In this document: in pieces, positions 1 through 7,139 of the stretch
Numbering within the stretch: the stretch's first letter is position 1
How the letters are laid out: each line of letters opens with the position of its first letter
DNA from: Methanobrevibacter sp.
GTDB lineage: Archaea; Methanobacteriota; Methanobacteria; Methanobacteriales; Methanobacteriaceae
Assembly (NCBI GenBank): GCA_017646885.1
Contig: JAGCLR010000397.1
Coordinates: forward strand, 1-7,139
Length of the DNA: 7,139 bases
Direction of reading: 5' to 3'
Notes under the pieces: generated by a model
Told to the model about the DNA's origin: nothing
Seen by the model: the letters and a program-made list of their open reading frames with translations, nothing else
The model's database searches: none
Program-made: the position numbers and the translations under genes

Positions 1-1502
1 CTGTAGTCTACGTGGTGGTGGATTCTTTCAAACTTGTAAATCATTGTCGCATATTGTGGATAAGTTTCAACAAGCAACTGTGATTTTGGAATAGTTCCAC
101 CAATGTCCTTGGAATAGAATACTTCTGTATTACCACCCTTAACGGCTTGCGTATGCATCTTGTCTGCCAACATACAGTTGAATTGAACAGTACACCAACC
201 GTGACTCAATACATCCAAAGACTGAATTGTATCTTCATTATATCGTCCACGCTGCATAATATATGGGCAGTTCAAATTCCACAAACCATAAGAATAGATA
301 CGGGTGTTAATGATTACAGGTGGGATATGTTCTCCGCCGATAGCGAAGCATTCATAATTCAAACCTGCCAAACCAATGTTCGTGAAACGGTCAACGTATC
401 GTTCGCAACTTCTAAAGATTTCAGGACTATGAGAAATGACTCGGCGACCTCTCCAGTATCTTGTGAATTGGTCTGTGTTGTCATCCAAAATCCAACACCA
501 GTTCTGCTTCAAAGTATTTTTAGCATAATCAGCTGCCCAGTTTCTTGCTGCTCCTGGACCTGTTACTGGCTTACCATTTCTAGGGTCAATCTTACTTCCT
601 AAATCAGGGTTAATTACATCGTATTTGTCCTTATAACTCATATCCATTTGTAGAATTGTACAATAAGGACTTTCGTTTAATTTACATTTAACATAATTGT
701 CATAGTCCCAGTCTTCTACAACAATGTAATGGTCTACTTGCATCTTTGTGAGCTGGTGAGAAATGTGGTTTTTAAATTCACCACTTCTTCCACGGGACAC
801 AACAAAGATAGGATACTTTGGCTGTTCACCGCCCAACCAACGAATACGATGCTTTGTGTGTTCTTGCCATTTCTGTATAGGGTACCAACAGTCTTCAGGA
901 CTGATACCAAAACTTTGTTCAAAAATTTCCATTAATTGTTCGAGAGAATAGTCCTTCTTTTTGAAATACATTTGAATTTTTGTGAAGGAATACTCCTTGA
1001 AATTGAAAATGAACTCTGGCATATCTCGCCAGGAATCCCAATAATTCCAAGACTTTGCGTTTCGTGCTTTTAGATGTTTGTATTTGTTCTTAAATTTGAA
1101 ATCTGGAAATCTTGCTTCTTCAGTGAAATTTGTCATTCGGTAGTCTTCAATTCTTTCGTGACAAAGACCGATGTCATCAGATACCAAATTTCTTTTACGA
1201 GCATCAGCACAAATTCTCTTATATAATTTATCCAAATCTTCCTGACAACGGACTTGCGTACTGAACTTCCAATAACCAGTATCTGTAACTTCTAAATCAG
1301 TGTAATTCTTAACCATTACACCATCTTTGTTGAAAAATCGGTATTCTTCGTTCCCATATTTCAACATACTGATTTTGAAACCAAATTCTTCGCAAAAATC
1401 TTTCAAAGTATCTGGCTTGATTTTCATTGTTGCCATATCTTCTTTTGTGAAATATGGCTTACATTTCAACAATTCCAATAAGTCTTTTTTATTTGATTGC
1501 AT
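1..1502 (-). CDS. TET-associated glycosyltransferase-like protein (DNA base hypermodification), 3' end cut by window edge
   Basis: The frame is open from ATG at 1502 to the left edge, giving 500 visible residues; the stop is outside. Residues 229-500 read as the TAGT family (phage GT-A-like glycosyltransferases related to the GREB1 C-terminus). Visible landmarks are YPIFVVSRGR (230-239), IVVE (260-263), GPGAARNWAADYA (315-327), the acidic ILDDN (338-342, likely metal and nucleotide-sugar site), RYNEDT (420-425), GGNTE (456-460) and the late HHHVDY (495-500), which suggests only a short C-terminus is missing. Residues 152-208 (W-x-x-MPEF ... CWYP) resemble a module I recall from other phage modification proteins, but I cannot name it. 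Residues 1-45 are helical and of unknown role. TAGT enzymes are proposed to add sugars to hydroxymethylated pyrimidines in phage DNA. A GAGGA ribosome-binding site lies in the end of the preceding gene. The family call is confident; the substrate is inferred. Confidence 0.85.
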   Translation of the reverse strand, partial: MQSNKKDLLELLKCKPYFTKEDMATMKIKPDTLKDFCEEFGFKISMLKYGNEEYRFFNKDGVMVKNYTDLEVTDTGYWKFSTQVRCQEDLDKLYKRICADARKRNLVSDDIGLCHERIEDYRMTNFTEEARFPDFKFKNKYKHLKARNAKSWNYWDSWRDMPEFIFNFKEYSFTKIQMYFKKKDYSLEQLMEIFEQSFGISPEDCWYPIQKWQEHTKHRIRWLGGEQPKYPIFVVSRGRSGEFKNHISHQLTKMQVDHYIVVEDWDYDNYVKCKLNESPYCTILQMDMSYKDKYDVINPDLGSKIDPRNGKPVTGPGAARNWAADYAKNTLKQNWCWILDDNTDQFTRYWRGRRVISHSPEIFRSCERYVDRFTNIGLAGLNYECFAIGGEHIPPVIINTRIYSYGLWNLNCPYIMQRGRYNEDTIQSLDVLSHGWCTVQFNCMLADKMHTQAVKGGNTEVFYSKDIGGTIPKSQLLVETYPQYATMIYKFERIHHHVDY

Positions 1503-1507
1503 ATAAA

Positions 1508-1834
1508 TTAATCCTCAAAATCTTTGGCAATTTTATCTATTCTTTTTTGATTATCTTTTGCTTTATATATAAGCGAACATCCTTCGCTGACTAATTCGCT
1601 AGTTAAACAATACAAATCATCAAATTTTGTTCTAAATAATTTTCCACCCTCATAATCTTTTCTAATTATTATGTTATCATAATTGAGTATCTTTACAGAA
1701 ATTTTAACTGCATCTGGACACTGGTAATAACCAAATTCATTCCAGTCATCTTTCTTAAAATCAAATTTATTCGCAATCCAACCGATGTTATAAAATGTCA
1801 TCAGTAGTTCACTCAAATTATATTTCTTATTCAT
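1508..1834 (-). CDS. Small DF-tail family protein (108 aa), unknown function
   Basis: Function not recognised. The 108 aa protein has an N-terminal helix-like stretch (residues 6-18, LSELLMTFY then I-G-W), a probable beta-rich middle (35-70) and a basic C-terminal helix ending I-x-x-I-x-x-D-F-E-D (tail at 99-106). The tail matches that of the gene cluster at 3865-7139, although this gene is separated from it by a terminator. Asp-Phe here comes just before the GAGGAT that serves the glycosyltransferase start 5 nt downstream of the stop, so the tail is not created by that ribosome-binding site. Its own ATG lacks a well-spaced Shine-Dalgarno; a TATATT at 1847-1842 lies just upstream, so a promoter with a very short leader is possible but unproven. 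It probably shares a transcript with the glycosyltransferase. Confidence 0.8.
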   Translation of the reverse strand: MNKKYNLSELLMTFYNIGWIANKFDFKKDDWNEFGYYQCPDAVKISVKILNYDNIIIRKDYEGGKLFRTKFDDLYCLTSELVSEGCSLIYKAKDNQKRIDKIAKDFED

Positions 1835-1852
1835 ACACCAAAATATAGCAAT

Positions 1853-1888
1853 AAAATAAAAAACCAGGAAAATTTTTTATTTTCCTGG
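1853..1888 (-). terminator. Rho-independent terminator
   Basis: On the minus strand, CCAGGAAAAT pairs perfectly with ATTTTCCTGG (10 bp stem, 1888-1864) around an AAAAA loop. The tract TTTTTTATTTT follows at once. It sits 25 nt after the stop of the 303 aa acidic gene and should end the operon arriving from the right. Read on the plus strand, the hairpin has no T-tract, so the direction is clear. Confidence 0.92.
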
Positions 1889-1913
1889 TACTGTTAAAAT
1901 TTATTTGTTCAGA

Positions 1914-2825
1914 TTAGTTTGTGCGATAGCAGTAATATCCGCAATCAAGTGAAATTTCATCACCATCATAACGAGCCAAAGAATTTGCAGGACCATCTGC
2001 GTCAACTATTGCTTCGGCAAGTTTATCAAGGTTAATCAAGTTGTTTTTCTTAACAATTTCAGTAAATTGTTTCTTACCAAAGTTGTCAATATACCACTGA
2101 ACATCATCATTTTCATAATAATTTTCAAGGTATTTTTCAACTGCTTCGTCTTCATCTACATCGCCAAATTCTTTTTGGTATCTTTCAGGTTCACTTTCGT
2201 GAATGTCACTTACATAGTATTCAGCATCTTCTTTCTTGGCATCTTCAAACCAACTACTATCTACAAATTGCTCAATACCACCAATGTTTTCAAAACGAAT
2301 TCCTTCAATACCTATATCGTCAAAGAGTTCCTTACTATCTTCCTGAGCGGCTGTTTCAGCATCGTCATAAGATTCATAACAATAGTATTCTTCATTACCG
2401 AATGTAACTTGAACTGCTAATTGACCTGGACCTTCGTTGTATTCAACTTCAGCATCGGAATAATCATTACCTGTATATTCGGCAAGTTCACGAACCATTG
2501 TTTTAATTTCGTCAGATTCGCCGTCTAATGGGTCATCTTCAGTTTCTTCAGCTACATCTTCGTCTTCGGCTTCTTTCAAGATACGATAGCCAAAGGATTC
2601 GCATACCTTCATAGCTTCAGCAAGGTCGGAACCTTCAATTTCTTCTATGAACATATCTTTAACGATAGGGAACAAATCTCTATCACTAACTTCTTCACCC
2701 AAATTTGCCTTTACATAAGCAAAACACTTCTGCAAGTTTGGTTCTCTGCCGTGTGTTTCACAAAATTCCTTATAGTCATTGACTAACAAGTTAATCTCTG
2801 ACATGTAACCTTCGTTAATTTTCAT
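1914..2825 (-). CDS. Highly acidic phage protein (303 aa), unknown function
   Basis: By my count 83 of 303 residues are Asp or Glu against 26 Lys or Arg, so the protein is strongly negative. Residues 8-85 look helical. An acidic linker spans about 85-108. A probably folded part (110-180) carries V-x-V-T-F-G-N-E-E-Y-Y-C-Y at 138-150. Residues 195-245 are helical and Tyr/Glu-rich. The C-terminal part has DADGPANSLARYDGDE (275-290); I recall similar D-G-x-x-x-L-x-x-Y-D-G endings in uncharacterised phage proteins, but cannot name a family. The ATG at 2825 is fixed by AGGAG 5 nt upstream. It is the last gene before the terminator and lacks the DF tail of its neighbours. The charge would fit a DNA mimic or a binding partner for basic proteins, but neither is shown. 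Confidence 0.85.
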   Translation of the reverse strand: MKINEGYMSEINLLVNDYKEFCETHGREPNLQKCFAYVKANLGEEVSDRDLFPIVKDMFIEEIEGSDLAEAMKVCESFGYRILKEAEDEDVAEETEDDPLDGESDEIKTMVRELAEYTGNDYSDAEVEYNEGPGQLAVQVTFGNEEYYCYESYDDAETAAQEDSKELFDDIGIEGIRFENIGGIEQFVDSSWFEDAKKEDAEYYVSDIHESEPERYQKEFGDVDEDEAVEKYLENYYENDDVQWYIDNFGKKQFTEIVKKNNLINLDKLAEAIVDADGPANSLARYDGDEISLDCGYYCYRTN

Positions 2826-2830
2826 AATAA

Positions 2831-2835
2831 CTCCT
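2831..2835 (-). promoter_or_regulatory. Shine-Dalgarno AGGAG for the 303 aa gene
   Basis: AGGAG lies 5 nt before the ATG at 2825, in the 39 nt gap after the basic 129 aa gene. It selects the first ATG over the in-frame ATG at residue 8. The same gap has an AT-rich TATAAA-like stretch on the minus strand, too weak to call as a promoter. Confidence 0.8.
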
Positions 2836-2864
2836 ATAAAATTTGTTTATAGTATTTATGAAAA

Positions 2865-3254
2865 TTAGAAATCTGTGCTTATTTTCGCTAATCGTAATTT
2901 ATTTAAGTGCCTTTTGTAGATTAAATCTATATCGTTACTGATAGCCTTTGCTACTTCAATAACTTTATCTACATCTGATTTATCGTATTTCTTCAGTTTC
3001 TTTCGTGATGTTTTGTGTTTTTTTATTAGTTTATCCAAATCACCACCGTGATGAATAAAATAATCTGCCGCAGGTGAACGCAAATATGGGCAAATTCCGA
3101 AACCTTTTTGTGGCAAATTCTTTTTATTTGCCGCTTTCTCTGGTGCAAAACCCCAAACTAAAATAACATTTGGTAGTATTTTAGAAGGGGCATTGTTTGA
3201 AAAATAATTTAGTGGCAATACTTCTTTTATGTAGTCTTTAATTACCTTTCGCAT
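2865..3254 (-). CDS. Basic lysine-rich protein with DF tail (129 aa), unknown function
   Basis: Not recognised. The N-terminal part is mixed, with a Gly/Pro/Cys-containing segment (GFGICPYLR near residues 54-62). A strongly basic helix follows (about KLIKKHKTSRKKLKKY), then a helical C-terminus ending L-x-x-I-S-T-D-F directly before TAA. The stop and the next ribosome-binding site are 30 nt apart, so this Asp-Phe cannot result from start-codon overlap. I chose the ATG at 3254, which overlaps the upstream coiled-coil gene by 17 nt. An in-frame GTG at 3281 would add nine residues (138 aa); neither start has an ideal Shine-Dalgarno. Apart from the tail it does not resemble the small proteins to its right. 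The basic charge beside an acidic product encoded next door is suggestive only. Confidence 0.75.
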   Translation of the reverse strand: MRKVIKDYIKEVLPLNYFSNNAPSKILPNVILVWGFAPEKAANKKNLPQKGFGICPYLRSPAADYFIHHGGDLDKLIKKHKTSRKKLKKYDKSDVDKVIEVAKAISNDIDLIYKRHLNKLRLAKISTDF

Positions 3255-3852
3255 AGTTCTTGTAATACACTCCAAGTTCACAAATTTTATCCAAAGTATT
3301 AGTTAAGTTATTCAATCGTTCTTCAATCTTATCGTTCTTTTCTTTTAGGACTTTAACTGCCAATCTTTCTTCTTCCAAATTGTGCTTATGGATTTCCAAA
3401 TCCTTATTCTTCGCATCAATTTCGTCTTTCTGTTTGGCTATAATTTCATTCAACTTTGTGATTTCGTCCAACCCGTGAGAAGTATTAACATTCTGTCTTA
3501 AAATGGTTTCGGACTGGTTCTTGATAAGTTCATTCTTTTCAGCCAATTCTTGTACTGTCTTTGCAGTTTGGATTTTGTATTCACAAATCGTTTCTGTATT
3601 TTCTTTGATTATATTTTCTTTCTTAACAAGTTCGCCTTGAAGAACGTCCATATCCTTCTTTAGAGCAGCCGTATCTTCAGCATACTTTGTTTTAAGATTT
3701 TCAAGTTCTTCTTTGGCTGTGCTATACCATTTAACAATTTCGTCAAGTGCTTCATCCACAAATTTTGCTTCGTAAGCATCTATTTGAACTGTTTTACCCG
3801 CAGGCCAAACTTTTCTAGTAACTTCAATTTTGTTTAATTCTTCGTATTTCAT
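3238..3852 (-). CDS. Long coiled-coil protein (204 aa), unknown function
   Basis: After a short non-coiled N-terminus (residues 1-43, with VWPAGKTVQIDAYEAKF at 15-31), nearly the whole protein is a Glu/Lys-rich coiled coil with regular hydrophobic spacing (about 44-117 and 127-190). The break is near NVNTSHGL (121-128). It ends YYKNYAKGN and lacks the DF tail. No signal peptide or membrane segment is seen. The ATG at 3852 is fixed by GAGGTG, 5 nt upstream and outside the preceding gene. It lies between two DF-tail genes in the same transcript. Possible roles are a scaffold, a structural or filament-like phage protein, or an assembly platform for its neighbours; the sequence does not decide. 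Confidence 0.85.
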   Translation of the reverse strand: MKYEELNKIEVTRKVWPAGKTVQIDAYEAKFVDEALDEIVKWYSTAKEELENLKTKYAEDTAALKKDMDVLQGELVKKENIIKENTETICEYKIQTAKTVQELAEKNELIKNQSETILRQNVNTSHGLDEITKLNEIIAKQKDEIDAKNKDLEIHKHNLEEERLAVKVLKEKNDKIEERLNNLTNTLDKICELGVYYKNYAKGN

Positions 3853-3864
3853 TAAATCACCTCA

Positions 3865-4419
3865 CTAAAAATCATTGGTTATATTTATAATTTTGTTTAG
3901 CTGCTTTTGGATTTTAGTTTTGGTTTCTTCACGAAGTTGTTTAATTGCTTCTTCTTTCTGGTTAAATTCTGCCAGCGTTTTCAATAACTTTTTAACTTCG
4001 GGTTTCTTATAAAATTCTATAACTTCTTTATATGTGATTTCCATTTCAGTTAATTTGTTATCCAAATCTTCTAAACTATTAACTGGTTTCCAATCCCACT
4101 GAATGTCTTGGAAATCCTTAATTTCTTTAAGTTTAGGTGGCATACAGATGTCTGTGATAAAACCATCTGTTATTTTTAGAACTGCAAAATCAGTTGGAAT
4201 GTTTACTACTTTCTTCGCATAAGCCAAATTCTTAAACTTAGAAAATTTCACATATTCATAATCGCCATAATTAGCCTGAAAATTGTACATATTTCCCTTA
4301 TACTTCTTATCCAAAATTTGTATGAATTTCGTATAATAGCACTGTACATTATGTTTGGCAAGTATTTCGTCTACTTGCTTACATAAATCCCAATCAAATT
4401 TAATTACATTTATGCTCAT
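3865..4419 (-). CDS. DF-tail family protein, long member (184 aa), unknown function
   Basis: Not recognised. This is the longest tailed member. Residues 10-22 form an amphipathic helix (LCKQVDEILAKH) followed by N-V-Q, a loose match to the family N-terminus. Residues 25-95 look beta-rich and Tyr/Phe-rich. From about 115 to the end it is a charged helical or coiled-coil region. The last residues are L-N-K-I-I-N-I-T-N-D-F, then TAG immediately followed by TGA. The Shine-Dalgarno of the next gene (GAGGTG) lies after this stop, so Asp-Phe is independent of any overlapping signal. The ATG at 4419 overlaps the previous stop (ATGA), with GAGGA 6 nt upstream. Confidence 0.82.
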   Translation of the reverse strand: MSINVIKFDWDLCKQVDEILAKHNVQCYYTKFIQILDKKYKGNMYNFQANYGDYEYVKFSKFKNLAYAKKVVNIPTDFAVLKITDGFITDICMPPKLKEIKDFQDIQWDWKPVNSLEDLDNKLTEMEITYKEVIEFYKKPEVKKLLKTLAEFNQKEEAIKQLREETKTKIQKQLNKIINITNDF

Positions 4420-4685
4420 TTGAAGTCCTCTTTTATTTTGTTTAGTCCCTGTTCTACTTTTTCCTGTTTAACTTCAAGAATTTTCTGCTGAACATATTTT
4501 TCAACTTCTTCTGCTTTAAAATAAGTTACGCTGTTCATATCTCTTGGAATAAAATAATACACAGCAGAGGTTTTTGACTGTAACCAGTCAATGAAGCCAA
4601 TTCTATAACCATTTAAATATACTATATCACAAATTGTTTGTAAAGAATAACGGTCTAAAATTTCGTCCATTTCTTGCTTAGTCAT
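4416..4685 (-). CDS. Small DF-tail family protein (89 aa), RIGF subgroup
   Basis: Unknown function. The N-terminal helix MDEILDRYSL (6-15) is followed by VYLNGYRIGFIDW (22-34), a Y-F-x-P segment (43-47) and a long C-terminal helix (56-89) ending L-N-K-I-K-E-D-F-K. It is clearly paralogous to the next gene upstream (4971-4678): both have YSL, VY-x-x-G-x-RIGF-x-D and Y-x-F-x-P in the same order and spacing. It starts at ATG 4685 with AAGGAAG upstream, overlapping the previous gene by 8 nt. Its stop overlaps the next start as ATGA, so the two are probably translationally coupled. Confidence 0.82.
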   Translation of the reverse strand: MTKQEMDEILDRYSLQTICDIVYLNGYRIGFIDWLQSKTSAVYYFIPRDMNSVTYFKAEEVEKYVQQKILEVKQEKVEQGLNKIKEDFK

Positions 4686-4971
4686 TAAAATCTTCCTTTA
4701 ATTGTTCAGTTCGTTTTTTCTCTTTAATTTGTTTGAACCATAAAGATTTTCTATCAAAAAATTCTCTTAAAGGTTTTTCTTTGTTAATTAGACTGTAACC
4801 CTCTATATTATCTGGGTCATCTTTATTAGGCACAAAATGGTAATCTTCACCATAAGGATTTGAAATATAATCAAAAAACCCAATGCGTTCACCCATAAAA
4901 TAAACACCACTGGACATTGAAATCTTCAATGAATAATCTTCAAATACTTTAAACAGTTCCTTCATCGTCAT
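4678..4971 (-). CDS. Small DF-tail family protein (97 aa), RIGF subgroup
   Basis: Unknown function; paralogue of the following gene (4685-4416). It has the N-terminal helix MKELFKVFEDYSL (3-15), GVYFMGERIGFFDY (22-35), YHFVP (44-48) and a basic C-terminal helix (about 65-90) ending E-Q-L-K-E-D-F-N-D. The tail lacks the usual Leu/Ile three residues before Leu91. I chose ATG 4971 (MTMKELF) because GGAG lies 9 nt upstream and this places the helix at the N-terminus as in other members. An ATG at 4986 would add five residues but has a poor ribosome-binding site; an ATG at 4965 is also possible. It overlaps the previous gene by 23 nt, the longest overlap in the cluster. Confidence 0.8.
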   Translation of the reverse strand: MTMKELFKVFEDYSLKISMSSGVYFMGERIGFFDYISNPYGEDYHFVPNKDDPDNIEGYSLINKEKPLREFFDRKSLWFKQIKEKKRTEQLKEDFND

Positions 4972-5293
4972 CTGTAAAATCTCCATTCAGTTCTTCTATT
5001 TTCAAATCCTGTTTGTATTTCTTATATGCCAGTTCAAATTCCATAAATTTCAATCTGCAAAATTCGTAACAATCACCATTAGTTCCGAAAATCAAAGTAT
5101 AAACTAAGCCATTTTTGTCAATACCAGTTAAATATGAATTTAAATCATAAGTTCCATTAGTACACCTGAAATCAAAAACATCTGGAACATTATGGTTTAT
5201 AATTGGCATTGACAAAGTAATAGAATTTGTATACTGATTTTTTAACAAATTAAATTCTTCTGCCAATTTAATTATATCGTCATATTTAATCAA
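4949..5293 (-). CDS. Small DF-tail family protein with extended acidic end (114 aa)
   Basis: Unknown function. The N-terminal helix YDDIIKLAEEFNL (4-16) matches the family pattern. The middle is probably beta-rich and ends G-D-C-Y-E-F-C-R (73-80), shared with the 128 aa protein at 5932-5546 (D-D-C-Y-V-F-C-R). A charged helix leads to I-E-E-L-N-G-D-F (99-106). Uniquely, eight more residues (TDDDEGTV) follow the Asp-Phe, and the next gene starts inside this extension. The start is TTG at 5293, chosen because GGAGAG lies 5 nt upstream and the first in-frame ATG (residue 29) would delete the conserved N-terminal helix. It overlaps the previous gene by 8 nt. Confidence 0.8.
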   Translation of the reverse strand: MIKYDDIIKLAEEFNLLKNQYTNSITLSMPIINHNVPDVFDFRCTNGTYDLNSYLTGIDKNGLVYTLIFGTNGDCYEFCRLKFMEFELAYKKYKQDLKIEELNGDFTDDDEGTV

Positions 5294-5549
5294 AGTCGCT
5301 CTCCATTCTCCAGAGTTTCTTCCTGAGTATTCTTCTCTTTAATTCTAACATTTTATCGTCTAAATACTCACGCAAACTTTCTTCTTTTGTTGTTGCTATT
5401 ACACCCTTATCAGTATACAAAAATGCTTTCTGTCCTCGTGAAGAAAAATCACAGATACAATAATCACCTGACATGGCTTGATAAAATATATCTTTCTTTA
5501 CTCTCAAACCATATCCTTCACATATTCGTAAAAATGATGTGAGTGTCAT
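5286..5549 (-). CDS. Small DF-tail family protein (87 aa), unknown function
   Basis: Unknown function. The N-terminal helix LTSFLRICEGYGLRV (3-17) fits the family pattern closely (compare EYGLEV in the 89 aa protein at 6846-6577). A short beta segment follows (DYCICDF, 29-35, then KAFLYTDKGVIA). The long Leu/Lys/Arg-rich C-terminal helix (56-84) ends K-L-W-R-M-E-S-D-F-D. The ATG at 5549 overlaps the previous stop as ATGA, with AAGGA upstream. Its last codons (GAC TTT GAT TAA) contain the TTG start of the next gene. It has three cysteines in its first 32 residues but no zinc-site spacing that I would trust. Confidence 0.82.
   Translation of the reverse strand: MTLTSFLRICEGYGLRVKKDIFYQAMSGDYCICDFSSRGQKAFLYTDKGVIATTKEESLREYLDDKMLELKRRILRKKLWRMESDFD
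5299..5304 (-). promoter_or_regulatory. Shine-Dalgarno GGAGAG deciding a TTG start at 5293
   Basis: GGAGAG sits 5 nt before TTG 5293 and inside the Met-Glu-Ser codons of the upstream gene's tail. It is the main support for the non-ATG start. Confidence 0.7.
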
Positions 5550-5932
5550 TCAAAGTCCTTCTTCATACTCACAATTCGTTTGTTCTCACCAAATTTTTTC
5601 TTGTAAAGAACAAACTGATTATAAGTTTCAATCAGATTCTTACAGTGTTTCTTTAGTTCTTTAAGACTCCAAATTTCTTCTTCTTCACACCACATAATTT
5701 TCAAATTATTACTGTGGCTGTTATATTCTAATTTCATACCAGTTCGGCAAAAGACATAACAATCGTCTGATGGGTCATATAAGAACAAAGGATAATCGTA
5801 ACCTTCTTCGTCCTTAATTTTCGCACCAGGAAATGTTGCTACATAACAATCAGTTGCCTTATCCATTCTATAATGAAGGTTAAGTTCTGTTGCTAATTTT
5901 TTAAGGCTTTCTTTGTTAATTTCATCGTTCAT
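5546..5932 (-). CDS. DF-tail family protein (128 aa), DCYxFCR subgroup
   Basis: Unknown function. The helix ESLKKLATELNLHY (8-21) is followed by a beta-rich middle, including YPLFLYDPSDDCYVFCR (47-63). A helical second half ends I-V-S-M-K-K-D-F-E. The D-C-Y-x-F-C-R motif is shared with the 114 aa protein at 5293-4949, and both place it after a Y-x-L-x-F or Y-P-L-F-L strand, so the two are likely paralogues. The ATG at 5932 overlaps the previous stop (ATGA), with GAGGG upstream; its own stop overlaps the next start in the same way. Confidence 0.82.
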   Translation of the reverse strand: MNDEINKESLKKLATELNLHYRMDKATDCYVATFPGAKIKDEEGYDYPLFLYDPSDDCYVFCRTGMKLEYNSHSNNLKIMWCEEEEIWSLKELKKHCKNLIETYNQFVLYKKKFGENKRIVSMKKDFE

Positions 5933-6312
5933 CTGAAATCCCTCTTCAGTTGCTGTAGTTTTCTTCTTTCTTGATGTTTCTTTTTTAATTTACAACATTT
6001 TTCATACTGTTTATACAAATTCTTAATATGGTCTTCGTATTTGTCTTTATCAACCACAATCCAGCCATAACATCTTATTGTTTCACTTCCCGGATTGAAA
6101 TCAACTTGTCTAGCAAATAATGTTCTGTGCAAACAAAGTTGTATATCTGTATCAGCGCAGGCAGTAACAAATCGTCCTAAAATATGACCGCCATCTATAT
6201 TCGCCCACGTATATCGTTTTTCTTTCTTTGAAATCTTCTTTACCGTTACCGGACTTACAAACTGGTCATCCCAATGTAAATTATATTTCCTGATTACAGC
6301 ATCTATTCTCAT
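5929..6312 (-). CDS. DF-tail family protein (127 aa), unknown function
   Basis: Unknown function. A short N-terminal helix (RIDAVIRKYNLHW, 2-14) follows the family Y-x-L pattern. The middle (18-85) is the most divergent of the cluster and probably beta-rich, with WANIDGGHILGRFV (36-49) and RCYGWIVVD (80-88). The C-terminal helix (about 90-125) is extremely basic (runs such as KLKKKHQERRKLQ) and ends L-Q-Q-L-K-R-D-F-R. Such a helix could bind nucleic acid, but no known domain is seen. The ATG at 6312 follows GAGGA by 6 nt and overlaps the previous stop by 4 nt. Confidence 0.82.
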   Translation of the reverse strand: MRIDAVIRKYNLHWDDQFVSPVTVKKISKKEKRYTWANIDGGHILGRFVTACADTDIQLCLHRTLFARQVDFNPGSETIRCYGWIVVDKDKYEDHIKNLYKQYEKCCKLKKKHQERRKLQQLKRDFR

Positions 6313-6320
6313 TTGAAATC
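6309..6320 (-). repeat. Gene-junction repeat, 12 nt (copy 1)
   Basis: Minus-strand GATTTCAAATGA, identical to 6854-6843. It encodes Asp-Phe-Lys-stop of one gene plus the ATG of the next. Near-matches occur at the 5929, 4416, 5546 and 6577 junctions. Confidence 0.6.
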
Positions 6321-6584
6321 CTCATTTAGTTTATTCAATTTACTTTCCATTTCTTGTTCTTTCAATAAAGTCAAAGTTTCATCCAATCGTGAATAACATT
6401 TTTTCTCATCACTACTTGCTAAAAATCTTTTTAATGGTAAGTCCAATATATCTATCAAGTTATCGCAGAGCTTATATACAACAACTCGTCCGTGATAACA
6501 ACCACGAATTTTATTTGTGTAATTATCGTCTTCTACTCTTTCCAAGCCGAAATCACGAATTAACCTTTCAAGTAAATCATTCAA
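6309..6584 (-). CDS. Small DF-tail family protein (91 aa), GRVV subgroup
   Basis: Unknown function. The N-terminal helix LLERLIRDFGLERV (4-17) is followed by GCYHGRVVVYKL (28-39), NLIDILD (42-48) and a C-terminal helix from about 60 ending L-N-K-L-N-E-D-F-K. It is clearly paralogous to the next gene upstream (6846-6577), sharing C-Y-x-G-R-V-V-x-Y and L-I-D-x-L-D in register. A 20 nt block (6481-6500) matches 6746-6765 at 17 positions, so the duplication is probably recent. It starts at ATG 6584 with GGAGAGA upstream and overlaps the previous gene by 8 nt. Confidence 0.83.
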   Translation of the reverse strand: MNDLLERLIRDFGLERVEDDNYTNKIRGCYHGRVVVYKLCDNLIDILDLPLKRFLASSDEKKCYSRLDETLTLLKEQEMESKLNKLNEDFK

Positions 6585-6846
6585 AATCTCTCTCCATTTT
6601 TATAAGCTTTCTTTCTAAATCTCTTTTCTTCAAAACTGGTATAATGTCATTTAACCAAGCTCTACATTGAGTTTCCTCACGGGTAGAATAAAAACTTCCG
6701 TCTTCGTCCAACACATCAATTAAACTAAGACTCAAAATATACATTACAACTCTACCGCGATAACAAGCAAGCGGAGAACCATCAATCGGGTCCTTTTTCA
6801 CTTCCAACCCATATTCAGCAACAAGTTTATTAAATAGTTCTTTCAT
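6577..6846 (-). CDS. Small DF-tail family protein (89 aa), GRVV subgroup
   Basis: Unknown function. It shows the family layout well: helix MKELFNKLVAEYGLEV (1-16), then ACYRGRVVMYIL (27-38), SLIDVLDEDG (41-50), a Cys-containing turn (C61), and a C-terminal helix ending KLIKMERDFE (80-89). It is the closest paralogue of the 91 aa protein encoded next; the N-terminus also resembles the 97 aa protein at 4971 (both M-K-E-L-F). The ATG at 6846 overlaps the previous stop as ATGA; the Shine-Dalgarno is only a modest GAGAGTGA. Translational coupling with the upstream gene is likely. Confidence 0.83.
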   Translation of the reverse strand: MKELFNKLVAEYGLEVKKDPIDGSPLACYRGRVVMYILSLSLIDVLDEDGSFYSTREETQCRAWLNDIIPVLKKRDLERKLIKMERDFE

Positions 6847-6854
6847 TTGAAATC
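6843..6854 (-). repeat. Gene-junction repeat, 12 nt (copy 2)
   Basis: Minus-strand GATTTCAAATGA, identical to 6320-6309, with the same role at the junction between two tailed genes. Confidence 0.6.
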
Positions 6855-7115
6855 ACTCTCTAATGCTAGTTCCTTAAAATGTAATTTCCACTTTTTGATA
6901 ATTGGAATATATGCTTCAACACATTTTTCAGCATACTTTAAATCTTGTGTTTCTTCGTATCTGGCGTCCCTAGTGTTATACACCACAACACAATTATACC
7001 CAGTACAAATAACACTGTAACCCAAGTATATTCCTACTATACCTGGGCCGCGCGGCTCTACTTTCAAACTAAATTTATTACTAAATTCGTGTACAACTTT
7101 TTCCCATTTAGACAA
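6843..7115 (-). CDS. Small DF-tail family protein (90 aa), TTG start
   Basis: Unknown function. An N-terminal helix (WEKVVHEFSNKFSLKVE, 4-20) is followed by IVGIYLGYSVIC (26-37), VVVYNTRD (43-50) and a C-terminal helix (58-85) ending L-A-L-E-S-D-F-K. The middle is a more distant relative of the GRVV subgroup (I-Y-x-G-x-x-V in place of C-Y-x-G-R-V-V). No ATG is available near the N-terminus. TTG at 7115 lies 6 nt after GGAGG, the strongest ribosome-binding site in the cluster, and overlaps the preceding gene's end by 8 nt. The same geometry recurs at 5293. Confidence 0.78.
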   Translation of the reverse strand: MSKWEKVVHEFSNKFSLKVEPRGPGIVGIYLGYSVICTGYNCVVVYNTRDARYEETQDLKYAEKCVEAYIPIIKKWKLHFKELALESDFK

Positions 7116-7139
7116 AATCTTCCTCCATTCTTCTCAATC
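7108..7139 (-). CDS. 3' end of another DF-tail gene, cut by window edge
   Basis: Only ten complete codons are visible on the minus strand: L-R-R-M-E-E-D-F-V then TAA. This is the family tail exactly (Leu, Met three residues on, then Asp-Phe). Its end overlaps the TTG start of the next gene by 8 nt, as seen at 5286-5293. It is too short to support on length alone; the call rests on the tail match, the reading frame and the conserved junction geometry. Confidence 0.6.
   Translation of the reverse strand, partial: LRRMEEDFV
7122..7126 (-). promoter_or_regulatory. Shine-Dalgarno GGAGG deciding a TTG start at 7115
   Basis: GGAGG lies 6 nt before TTG 7115, within the Met-Glu-Glu codons of the truncated upstream gene. 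It supports the TTG start, as no ATG is close in that frame. Confidence 0.7.

Follow-up and report, generated by a model that had tools for sequence, protein, structure and literature searches.

A shared C-terminal Asp-Phe tail on otherwise dissimilar small proteins of T4-related viruses

Introduction

Why should a series of viral proteins that hardly resemble each other end in nearly the same residues? The question is raised by a stretch of DNA of 7,139 nucleotides (contig JAGCLR010000397.1, here called the window), in which an initial annotation noticed thirteen proteins with a common Asp-Phe (DF) tail. The tail was proposed to be selected as protein, and to act as a docking peptide for one hub, a sorting signal for the virion or a compartment, or a stability signal. 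The tag is carried by a single lineage of T4-related viruses of bacteria, all uncultured, in which it is present on dozens to more than 100 otherwise unlike small proteins per genome.

The tail in the window

All features considered here are encoded on the minus strand. The tail, counted from the Lys at −14 to the stop codon, occupies 1508..1564 in the 108-residue ORF 1508–1834 (end KIAKDFED). It is followed by the tails at 2865..2915 in ORF 2865–3281 (AKISTDF; the GTG start may be replaced by an ATG, giving 2865–3254), 3865..3915 in the 184-residue ORF 3865–4419 (INITNDF), 4416..4469 in ORF 4416–4685 (NKIKEDFK) and 4678..4734 in ORF 4678–4986 (EQLKEDFND; alternative ATG at 4971). ORF 4949–5293, with its tail at 4949..5023, is the outlier, in which DF is followed by the eight residues TDDDEGTV. 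The array continues with the tails at 5286..5339 in ORF 5286–5549 (WRMESDFD), 5546..5599 in ORF 5546–5932 (VSMKKDFE), 5929..5982 in ORF 5929–6312 (QQLKRDFR), 6309..6362 in ORF 6309–6584 (TTG start; NKLNEDFK), 6577..6630 in the 89-residue ORF 6577–6846 (IKMERDFE) and 6843..6896 in ORF 6843–7115 (TTG start; LALESDFK), and closes with a tailed ORF at 7108..7139 (RMEEDFV), clipped by the window edge. Two ORFs within the array are untailed, one of 303 residues (1914..2825, end CYYCYRTN) and one of 204 residues rich in Lys and Glu (3238..3852, end YKNYAKGN), whose Pfam matches all fall below the curated cut-offs. The downstream neighbor (3..1502), also clipped by the edge, is a TET-associated glycosyltransferase (PF20691, E 6.8e-22; phrog_842, E 3.2e-27); its complete homologue of 610 residues in contig L001 ends SLAGYYY and is likewise untailed.

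The residue pattern first described for these ends was confirmed: 12 of the 13 proteins end 0–2 residues after DF, Leu, Ile or Met stands at −3 from the Asp in all 13, and Leu or Ile at −6 in 11. A stronger feature, absent from the initial annotation, is the Lys at −14, found in 12 of 12 readable proteins, together with Lys or Arg at −7 in 11 of them; the protein ending at 7108 shows only its last residues, hence the smaller number. The fuller motif thus covers about 16 residues, K-x6-[KR]-[LI]-x2-[ILM]-x2-D-F. In a profile of 282 tailed proteins, Lys occurs at −14 in 242, Lys or Arg at −7 in 212, Leu or Ile at −6 in 189, and Ile, Leu or Met at −3 in 231 (ends of the form DF[FL] are excluded from the motif counts). 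At least one residue follows DF in 149 of the 282 tails, and these trailing residues are variable.

Frequency of the tail and chance controls

The initial annotation regarded an equal frequency of the motif at unrelated ORF ends as an argument against selection. The comparison was made with uncalled ORFs, that is, stop-to-stop frames of at least 30 residues from the same contig, and genes were called by our own script, blind to the tails, with approximate starts. In three related IMG/VR contigs, DF lies within the last four residues of 37/145 complete called genes (G001), 73/269 (G013) and 135/420 (G012), versus 7/1371, 9/1777 and 18/2764 uncalled ORFs; in the window, the figures are 11/14 and 0/94. 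The motif is nearly absent from uncalled ORFs, and this argument against selection fails. In 1000 shuffles of the last 20 residues in G001, such ends numbered 1.8 on average and never exceeded 7, versus the 37 observed. Inside proteins, the full motif appears at three places in G012 and at one each in G013, G001 and G002.

In T4 itself, taken as a control, no group of three or more proteins shares a C-terminal end at the stricter threshold; the looser threshold yields three clusters, each of three proteins. In G017 (400 of 424 kb read), clusters reach at most five members of mixed composition at the stricter threshold, and up to 11, versus five in a control segment, at the looser. The scan of viral contigs with alignment A5 matched G001 and G002 only, annotated phages gave no DNA match to the window, and a single scan of cellular genomes with the window glycosyltransferase found no relative.

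Selection on the protein

The DF codons often lie in or beside the start signal of the next gene, and for this reason an origin of the tail as a by-product of the ribosome-binding site was weighed first. In accordance with it, 216 of 271 tailed genes overlap the next same-strand gene or end within 15 nt of it; it is ruled out by the 52 of 271 genes whose next gene is at least 30 nt away (at least 100 nt for 20), by the lack of a fixed DF codon pair and by the uncalled-ORF and shuffle controls, and it leaves the Lys at −14 unexplained. An example is ORF 2865–3281, where the next gene starts at 2825, 39 nt off, which places the DF codons too far away to serve its ribosome-binding site. All four synonymous codings of DF occur, in the window as had been noted and in the larger set at rates near genome use, which also rejects nucleotide-level selection or recombination sites as the source. 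Codon use is close, not identical, to that of the genomes (GAT 78% vs 70%, TTT 60% vs 67%).

Homologues mostly retain the tail. DF is kept in 69 of 69 homologues of ORF 3865–4419 among the matches listed, four of them at 34–47% identity, and in 119 of 120 of the ORF 6577–6846 subfamily, again among the matches listed. With the tail omitted from the query, it was kept in 23/24 cases from G012 to G013 and in 25/26 from G001 to G002. From G001 to the distant G003 and G011 contigs, DF is kept in only two of five best hits, and two others have MF; the G003 homologue of G001_59 and G002_8, which correspond to the tail at 1508..1564, ends IIEEMF. The truncated G001 orthologue of ORF 2865–3281 (G001_61) has no tail. 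The objection that homologues might freely lose DF while keeping their cores is thus borne out only in part, since the tail is almost always retained among close homologues, and a few homologues have lost it or exchanged DF for MF. Selection of the tail as protein, as proposed at the outset, is well supported, because its codons are not fixed, it is kept where no gene follows closely, close homologues retain it and uncalled ORFs are nearly without it.

Divergent cores and a common C-terminal helix

Without their tails, 268 cores fall into 209 clusters at E < 1e-3, of which 171 are singletons. When the profile of a single core subfamily was run for four rounds, it connected to 40 of 298 tailed cores and to 3 of 657 cores without a tail. 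The scans with Pfam, PHROGs and PADLOC covered 129 of the 135 G012 DF-end proteins, leaving aside three that cross piece borders and three with long or clamp-type ends. At E 0.001, every Pfam or PHROGs family that gave a match did so with a single one of the 129, consistent with the earlier remark that no named family is known to be defined by this tail; two families of each database were matched, by one member each, the Pfam pair being TetR and DUF5715. Since one of the PHROGs matches is to an endolysin family (E 2.4e-11), chance probably accounts for at least one DF end in this set. A precomputed label, PF28450, is attached to 3 of the 69 homologues of ORF 3865–4419 and was not returned for them by our Pfam scan.

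The predicted structures of two window proteins have unlike cores, yet each finishes in a long C-terminal helix whose final portion carries the motif. ORF 6577–6846 is predicted to form a helix, five strands and a 31-residue C-terminal helix ending at DF, and ORF 3865–4419 a 44-residue C-terminal helix. The 16 residues before DF (271 tails) contain 0.16% proline and 1.7% glycine; in 578 small proteins without the tail, the ends contain 2.2% and 4.0%.

The occurrence of the same residues on cores that cannot be aligned points to one common partner outside these proteins, and we lean, by a modest degree, toward the tail being a C-terminal helix that docks on it. Leu/Ile at −6, Ile/Leu/Met at −3 and Phe at +1 would lie on one face of the helix and meet the partner, while Lys at −14, Lys/Arg at −7 and Asp at 0, one heptad apart, would line another. 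Each variable core would contribute its own activity, and the tail would recruit all of them to one hub, of phage or host origin, during infection. Among the functions first listed, a docking peptide is the likeliest, its partner being putative. A search for the hub, made on partial contigs, looked for G012 proteins that every tailed group has and that G006, G017 and G015 lack. It gave only two weak candidates, G012_116 (152 residues) and, at a looser cut-off, G012_383, which serve as leads only.

It is possible, with a clearly smaller probability, that the tailed proteins are one hyperdivergent paralogous family with no separate hub, in which the last helix is the slowest-changing structural element, packed on its own core or pairing with other copies as a coiled coil. 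Six window proteins and 13 relatives do align, with Tyr 29, Lys 73, Asp 87 and Phe 88 invariant, and the hydrophobic positions −6, −3 and +1 are compatible with a heptad. An [EDQ]-x-[FY] start near the N-terminus is found in 18/129 tailed versus 9/221 untailed G012 proteins, but this is a minority of the tailed proteins (4/69 in G013, 4/36 in G001). Most cores remain unconnected even after the four profile rounds, and the two predicted folds differ; cores too diverged for the tools used could still be one fold family.

A broader version of the docking proposal may be put forward tentatively, as a modular plug-in system in which rapidly replaced cores share one interchangeable C-terminal helix leading to a single effector hub of the infected cell. 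Sister lineages would use other plugs (EFMDI, VPKGILKIP, YIELDDIVL), plug and socket changing together. A 416-kb relative has other shared C-terminal tails, different from the DF tail. The EFMDI tails of G006 have varied codons and yet a recurrent GAATTC, so recent duplication probably contributes there.

Comparison with known tags

The docking of unrelated proteins on one hub by C-terminal hydrophobic and acidic peptides is known from T4 gp43, gp33 and gp55, whose clamp-binding motifs are described as highly similar and freely interchangeable (PMC2988020). The tail could dock on the phage sliding clamp in the same way, which we consider unlikely. The spacing before the last aromatic residue is similar: T4 ends in SLDFLFG (gp43), NTLDFLL (gp33) and SLDFLYEAND (gp55), many polymerase B tails of the relatives follow hydrophobic-x-x-[FI]-F (e.g., GLDDFFV, STLEDIFC), and some G003 tails are LEDMF or IIEEMF, with Met at position 0 in four G003 proteins, as would fit a clamp-type tail. 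However, position 0, which is hydrophobic in the tails of T4 and of the polymerases compared here, is Asp by definition in the DF class and acidic in nearly all tails, and the Lys at −14 and Lys/Arg at −7 have no counterpart in a separate [SG][LIF]x[DE]F[FL]x class, which the same phages carry on the polymerase, a 232-residue putative DNA methylase and a 130-residue protein.

That a protease of host or phage reads the tail as a degradation or stability signal is more doubtful still. Such a role would agree with the C-terminal site and account for one tag on many small proteins, but conservation extends 14 residues inward, and the variable residues after DF fit poorly with recognition through the free carboxylate.

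A virion loading signal comparable to the T4 capsid targeting sequence, only at the opposite end of the protein, is highly improbable. A short shared terminal tag is described on the divergent internal proteins of T4-related phages (PMC9026906), and the T4 sequence on IPI, IPII and IPIII resembles the DF tail as a short terminal tag on small proteins with divergent mature parts. It is, however, an N-terminal propeptide of a few proteins, removed by gp21, of which 10 residues suffice in IPIII, whereas the DF tail takes up about 16 residues at the C-terminus and is present on up to about one third of called genes; a separate N-terminal leader is found on other proteins of the same phages. Tailed genes are rarely first in a gene run. 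Among run-starting genes of G001, G002, G012, G013 and G003, the late-type word TATAAATA, the T4 late promoter consensus, precedes 1/33 tail-first genes versus 47/265 others, so that, on this indirect promoter evidence, the virion sorting signal proposed earlier becomes less likely; an early-type pattern is also rare (3/33 vs 83/265).

Similar fragments on otherwise unrelated phage proteins are reported to be frequent (PMC10684548), and the examples considered here are between-genome comparisons of domains in receptor-binding proteins, endolysins and replication proteins. The DF tail differs in that a single genome repeats one short tail on dozens of its small proteins. In design only, it is analogous to the poxviral PRANC proteins, which form a large viral family and combine varied binding parts with a shared docking part at the C-terminus. 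These ankyrin/F-box proteins are described as substrate adapters (PMC9414399). They differ in the eukaryotic virus, the folded F-box-like domain and the known ubiquitin-ligase hub; the Pfam scan of the 129 G012 proteins returned neither ankyrin repeats nor an F-box-like part. Among the papers listed in searches of the open-access literature, which lacks most subscription papers, no title or beginning of an abstract describes such a tag, which is weak evidence of novelty.

Significance

Large phages have many small genes without an assigned function. A tag on about one third of the genes of one genome would offer a single handle on them: if its partner is found, many small proteins would gain a place of action. 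The tail by itself suffices to recognize small proteins of this kind, and since relatives have different tails, the idea can be tested in more than one lineage.

The shared tail and its occurrence in related phages

Small ORFs are tightly packed along the minus strand of the window, with a glycosyltransferase gene after them. The initial annotation described a common end, [LI]xx[LIM]xxDF, on 13 divergent proteins, and translation bears this out: Asp-Phe lies near the end of all 13 and no more than two residues from the C-terminus in 12, with Leu, Ile or Met at position −3 in 13 and Leu or Ile at −6 in 11 (Asp being position 0). Two larger ORFs within the run, with ends at 1914 and 3238, are without the tail. 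A stronger constant than those first noted is Lys exactly at −14, present in 12/12 readable proteins, and Lys or Arg occupies −7 in 11 of these 12. The earlier observation is real and understated.

The DNA of the window gave no match to annotated phages. Its close relatives among IMG/VR viral contigs include G001 (104,766 bp), G002 (109,449 bp) and G003 (76,363 bp), which are considered T4-related because they match T4 baseplate, terminase, gyrase and glycosyltransferase families. A polymerase-based search added further contigs with tailed proteins (G011, G012, G013 and G022), together with several contigs without them; the G012 polymerase is about 27–31% identical to those of cultured T4-like phages among the matches listed (25 of 2500). 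The terminase may be split (L001:15657-16550, a contig stretch, and G001 98798-99832 (+)). A 297-aa ORF ends with a CLTGDSKV stretch, possibly an intein start, and a Terminase_6C ORF sits elsewhere. Adjoining a tailed-gene cluster are genes for a DUF2201 metallopeptidase/VWA protein and an AAA_5 protein (G001 84356-87166; L017:4356-7166), the latter ending in IVRIQNEFK. The tailed groups also encode, near tailed genes, a small untailed protein (G012_116, G013_58, G011_2, G001_78, G002_29), which was not found in G006, G017 or G015; a Pfam scan of two of the five gave no match.

Frequency, composition and selection

Genes were called with our own caller, which is blind to tails, and a DF end was defined as Asp-Phe within the last four residues. 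Among complete called genes, such ends occur in 37/145 (G001), 32/149 (G002), 15/104 (G003), 22/144 (G011), 73/269 (G013) and 135/420 (G012), counts that also take in some ends of a different kind, e.g., the polymerase end GLDDFFV. Without DF[FL] ends, 37, 69 and 131 remain in G001, G013 and G012, of which 32, 56 and 116 have Lys at −14. All but one of the 37 in G001 belong to proteins no longer than 190 aa. Shuffling the protein ends of G001 produced DF in 1.8 of 145 on average and in 7 at most, and T4 has 3/192. Equal abundance of DF at unrelated ORF ends, which would speak against the tail, is contradicted: uncalled ORFs carry it in only 7/1371 (G001), 5/1440 (G002), 18/2764 (G012) and 9/1777 (G013) cases. 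When G012 proteins are clustered, the segment 31–42 residues before the end forms groups of at most five members; the protein ends form one of 150.

Five contigs and the window together contributed 282 tailed proteins to a motif profile. Lys at −14 is found in 242, Lys/Arg at −7 in 212, Leu/Ile at −6 in 189 and Ile/Leu/Met at −3 in 231, and proline makes up 0.16% of the 16 residues before DF, compared with 2.2% in the C-terminal ends of small proteins lacking the tail. The spacing suggests that positions −14/−7/0 and −6/−3/+1 form two faces of a helix.

Because 216 of 271 tailed genes run into the following gene or stop right beside it, the DF codons are often part of that gene's start signal or close to it. 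However, all four Asp-Phe codon pairs are used (136, 84, 33 and 29) about as often as genome-wide codon usage would predict, and 52/271 tailed genes end at least 30 nt, and 20/271 at least 100 nt, before the next same-strand gene. Selection on the tail at the protein level, as initially proposed, is thus well supported.

Diversity of the cores and retention of the tail

After removal of the tail, clustering 268 cores at E < 1e-3 gave 209 groups, of which 171 are singletons. One subfamily could be aligned from six window proteins and 13 relatives; after four rounds its profile matches 40/298 tailed cores and 3/657 untailed ones, the latter three having DF farther from the end. Scanning of 129 G012 proteins returned two families each from Pfam, PHROG and PADLOC, every family being matched by a single protein. 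Two window proteins modelled with AlphaFold2 (mean pLDDT 89.2 and 84.8) have different cores: in the 6577-6846 protein, a helix and five strands precede a 31-residue helix, and the 3865-4419 protein has a mixed core with 23-residue and 44-residue helices. In both, the tail makes up the last part of the final helix, and model confidence drops there (final-block values 77 and 60). Structural library searches with the two models yielded no clear match. A precomputed label, PF28450, is attached to 3/69 homologues of the 3865-4419 protein (P0236, P0244, P0264) and was not returned for them by our Pfam scan; another homologue, P0272, has a DnaK label from its source.

The subfamily profile matched 160 proteins, and 119 of the 120 listed, window proteins included, have the DF end, the single exception having 13 more residues after it. 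The tail is likewise kept in 69/69 homologues of the 3865-4419 protein, its own sequence included; four of these align at 34–47% identity, and Lys −14, Lys −7, Asp and Phe all fall in invariant columns. As the tail was part of both queries, these counts are biased towards tailed matches. Retention was also scored in best matches (E < 1e-5) to queries without the last 18 residues. DF was kept in 9/10 (window to G001), 9/9 (window to G002), 25/26 (G001 to G002), 23/25 (G002 to G001), 23/24 (G012 to G013), 23/25 (G013 to G012), 7/7 (G011 to G012/G013), 7/7 (G012 to G011/G003) and 2/2 (G003 to G001/G002), in 1/2 from G002 to G003/G011, and in only 2/5 from G001 to G003/G011. Free loss in orthologues, the other outcome that would weigh against the tail, is borne out only in part, a few homologues having lost the tail or changed DF to MF. 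The exceptions comprise a truncated orthologue (G001_61, matched twice), a tail on the neighboring ORF G001_115 (G001_116), CNDED after DF (G013_205), a protein of only 60 aa (G012_0), a best match without DF (G012_129), MF in place of DF (G003_39 and G003_12, the latter matched twice) and two weak matches of G001_57, which is probably not a true member. The orthologues G001_75 and G002_24 end in DDC. Few tailed proteins have homologues beyond close relatives (for G012, 24/130 in G013 and 7/130 in G011/G003).

Possible role of the tail

That the same residues recur on cores that cannot be aligned would be best explained by a single outside partner, on which the tail of each unlike core would dock. 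Docking on such a putative common partner is the likeliest mechanism, held with slightly better than even confidence. The phage sliding clamp is a serious candidate for this role, because the polymerase tails of the relatives, often hydrophobic-x-x-F-F, share their spacing with the DF tail, and the C-termini of T4 gp43, gp33 and gp55 (SLDFLFG, NTLDFLL and SLDFLYEAND) are treated in PMC2988020 as motifs that bind the clamp and are interchangeable. The DF tail, however, differs from these T4 ends in its acidic position 0, and a separate clamp-type class exists in the same genomes. The tail might instead act as a virion loading signal, of the kind for which PMC9026906 offers a precedent, but in five contigs the late-type promoter word precedes 1/33 tailed genes that start a gene run, versus 47/265 other run-starting genes.

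Other shared termini in the relatives

Other proteins have in common an N-terminal leader, approximately M-x-L-x-E-A-x3-L-xx-x-G-[YF], with 1 to 17 per contig in G001, G002, G003, G006, G011, G012, G013, G015 and G017; the pattern has no match in T4. A looser pattern in six contigs includes 16 run-starting genes, nine with the late-type promoter word. This may be a capsid leader.

Different C-terminal ends recur elsewhere. In G006 (415,750 bp), DF is within the last four residues of only 4/644 proteins; unlike small proteins end instead in EFMDI (16), a GILKIP-type sequence (17, two counts being one member apart), YEI after D-D (DD-x-M-x-YEI; six) or PEW[TN] (four). These alternative tails lie in pieces L057-L077, e.g., at contig positions 10753-13763 and 380656-401000, and a sigma-70-like pair is located upstream of 5/14 tail-first genes of this contig. 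The stretch L094 encodes 12 proteins ending in YIEL[DE]D[IL][VI]L and also a polymerase ending in SELESFFC. Ends resembling IKHAGDEYE or KDAAKEYEL on small proteins of L111, L119 and L123 may mark another tail family, and four proteins of G017 share an N-terminal F-E-T-N-S-S-S stretch. At the same threshold, the sister contigs G017 and G015 have no tail cluster of more than five and three members, respectively; therefore, the shared-tail scheme seems to be lineage-specific.
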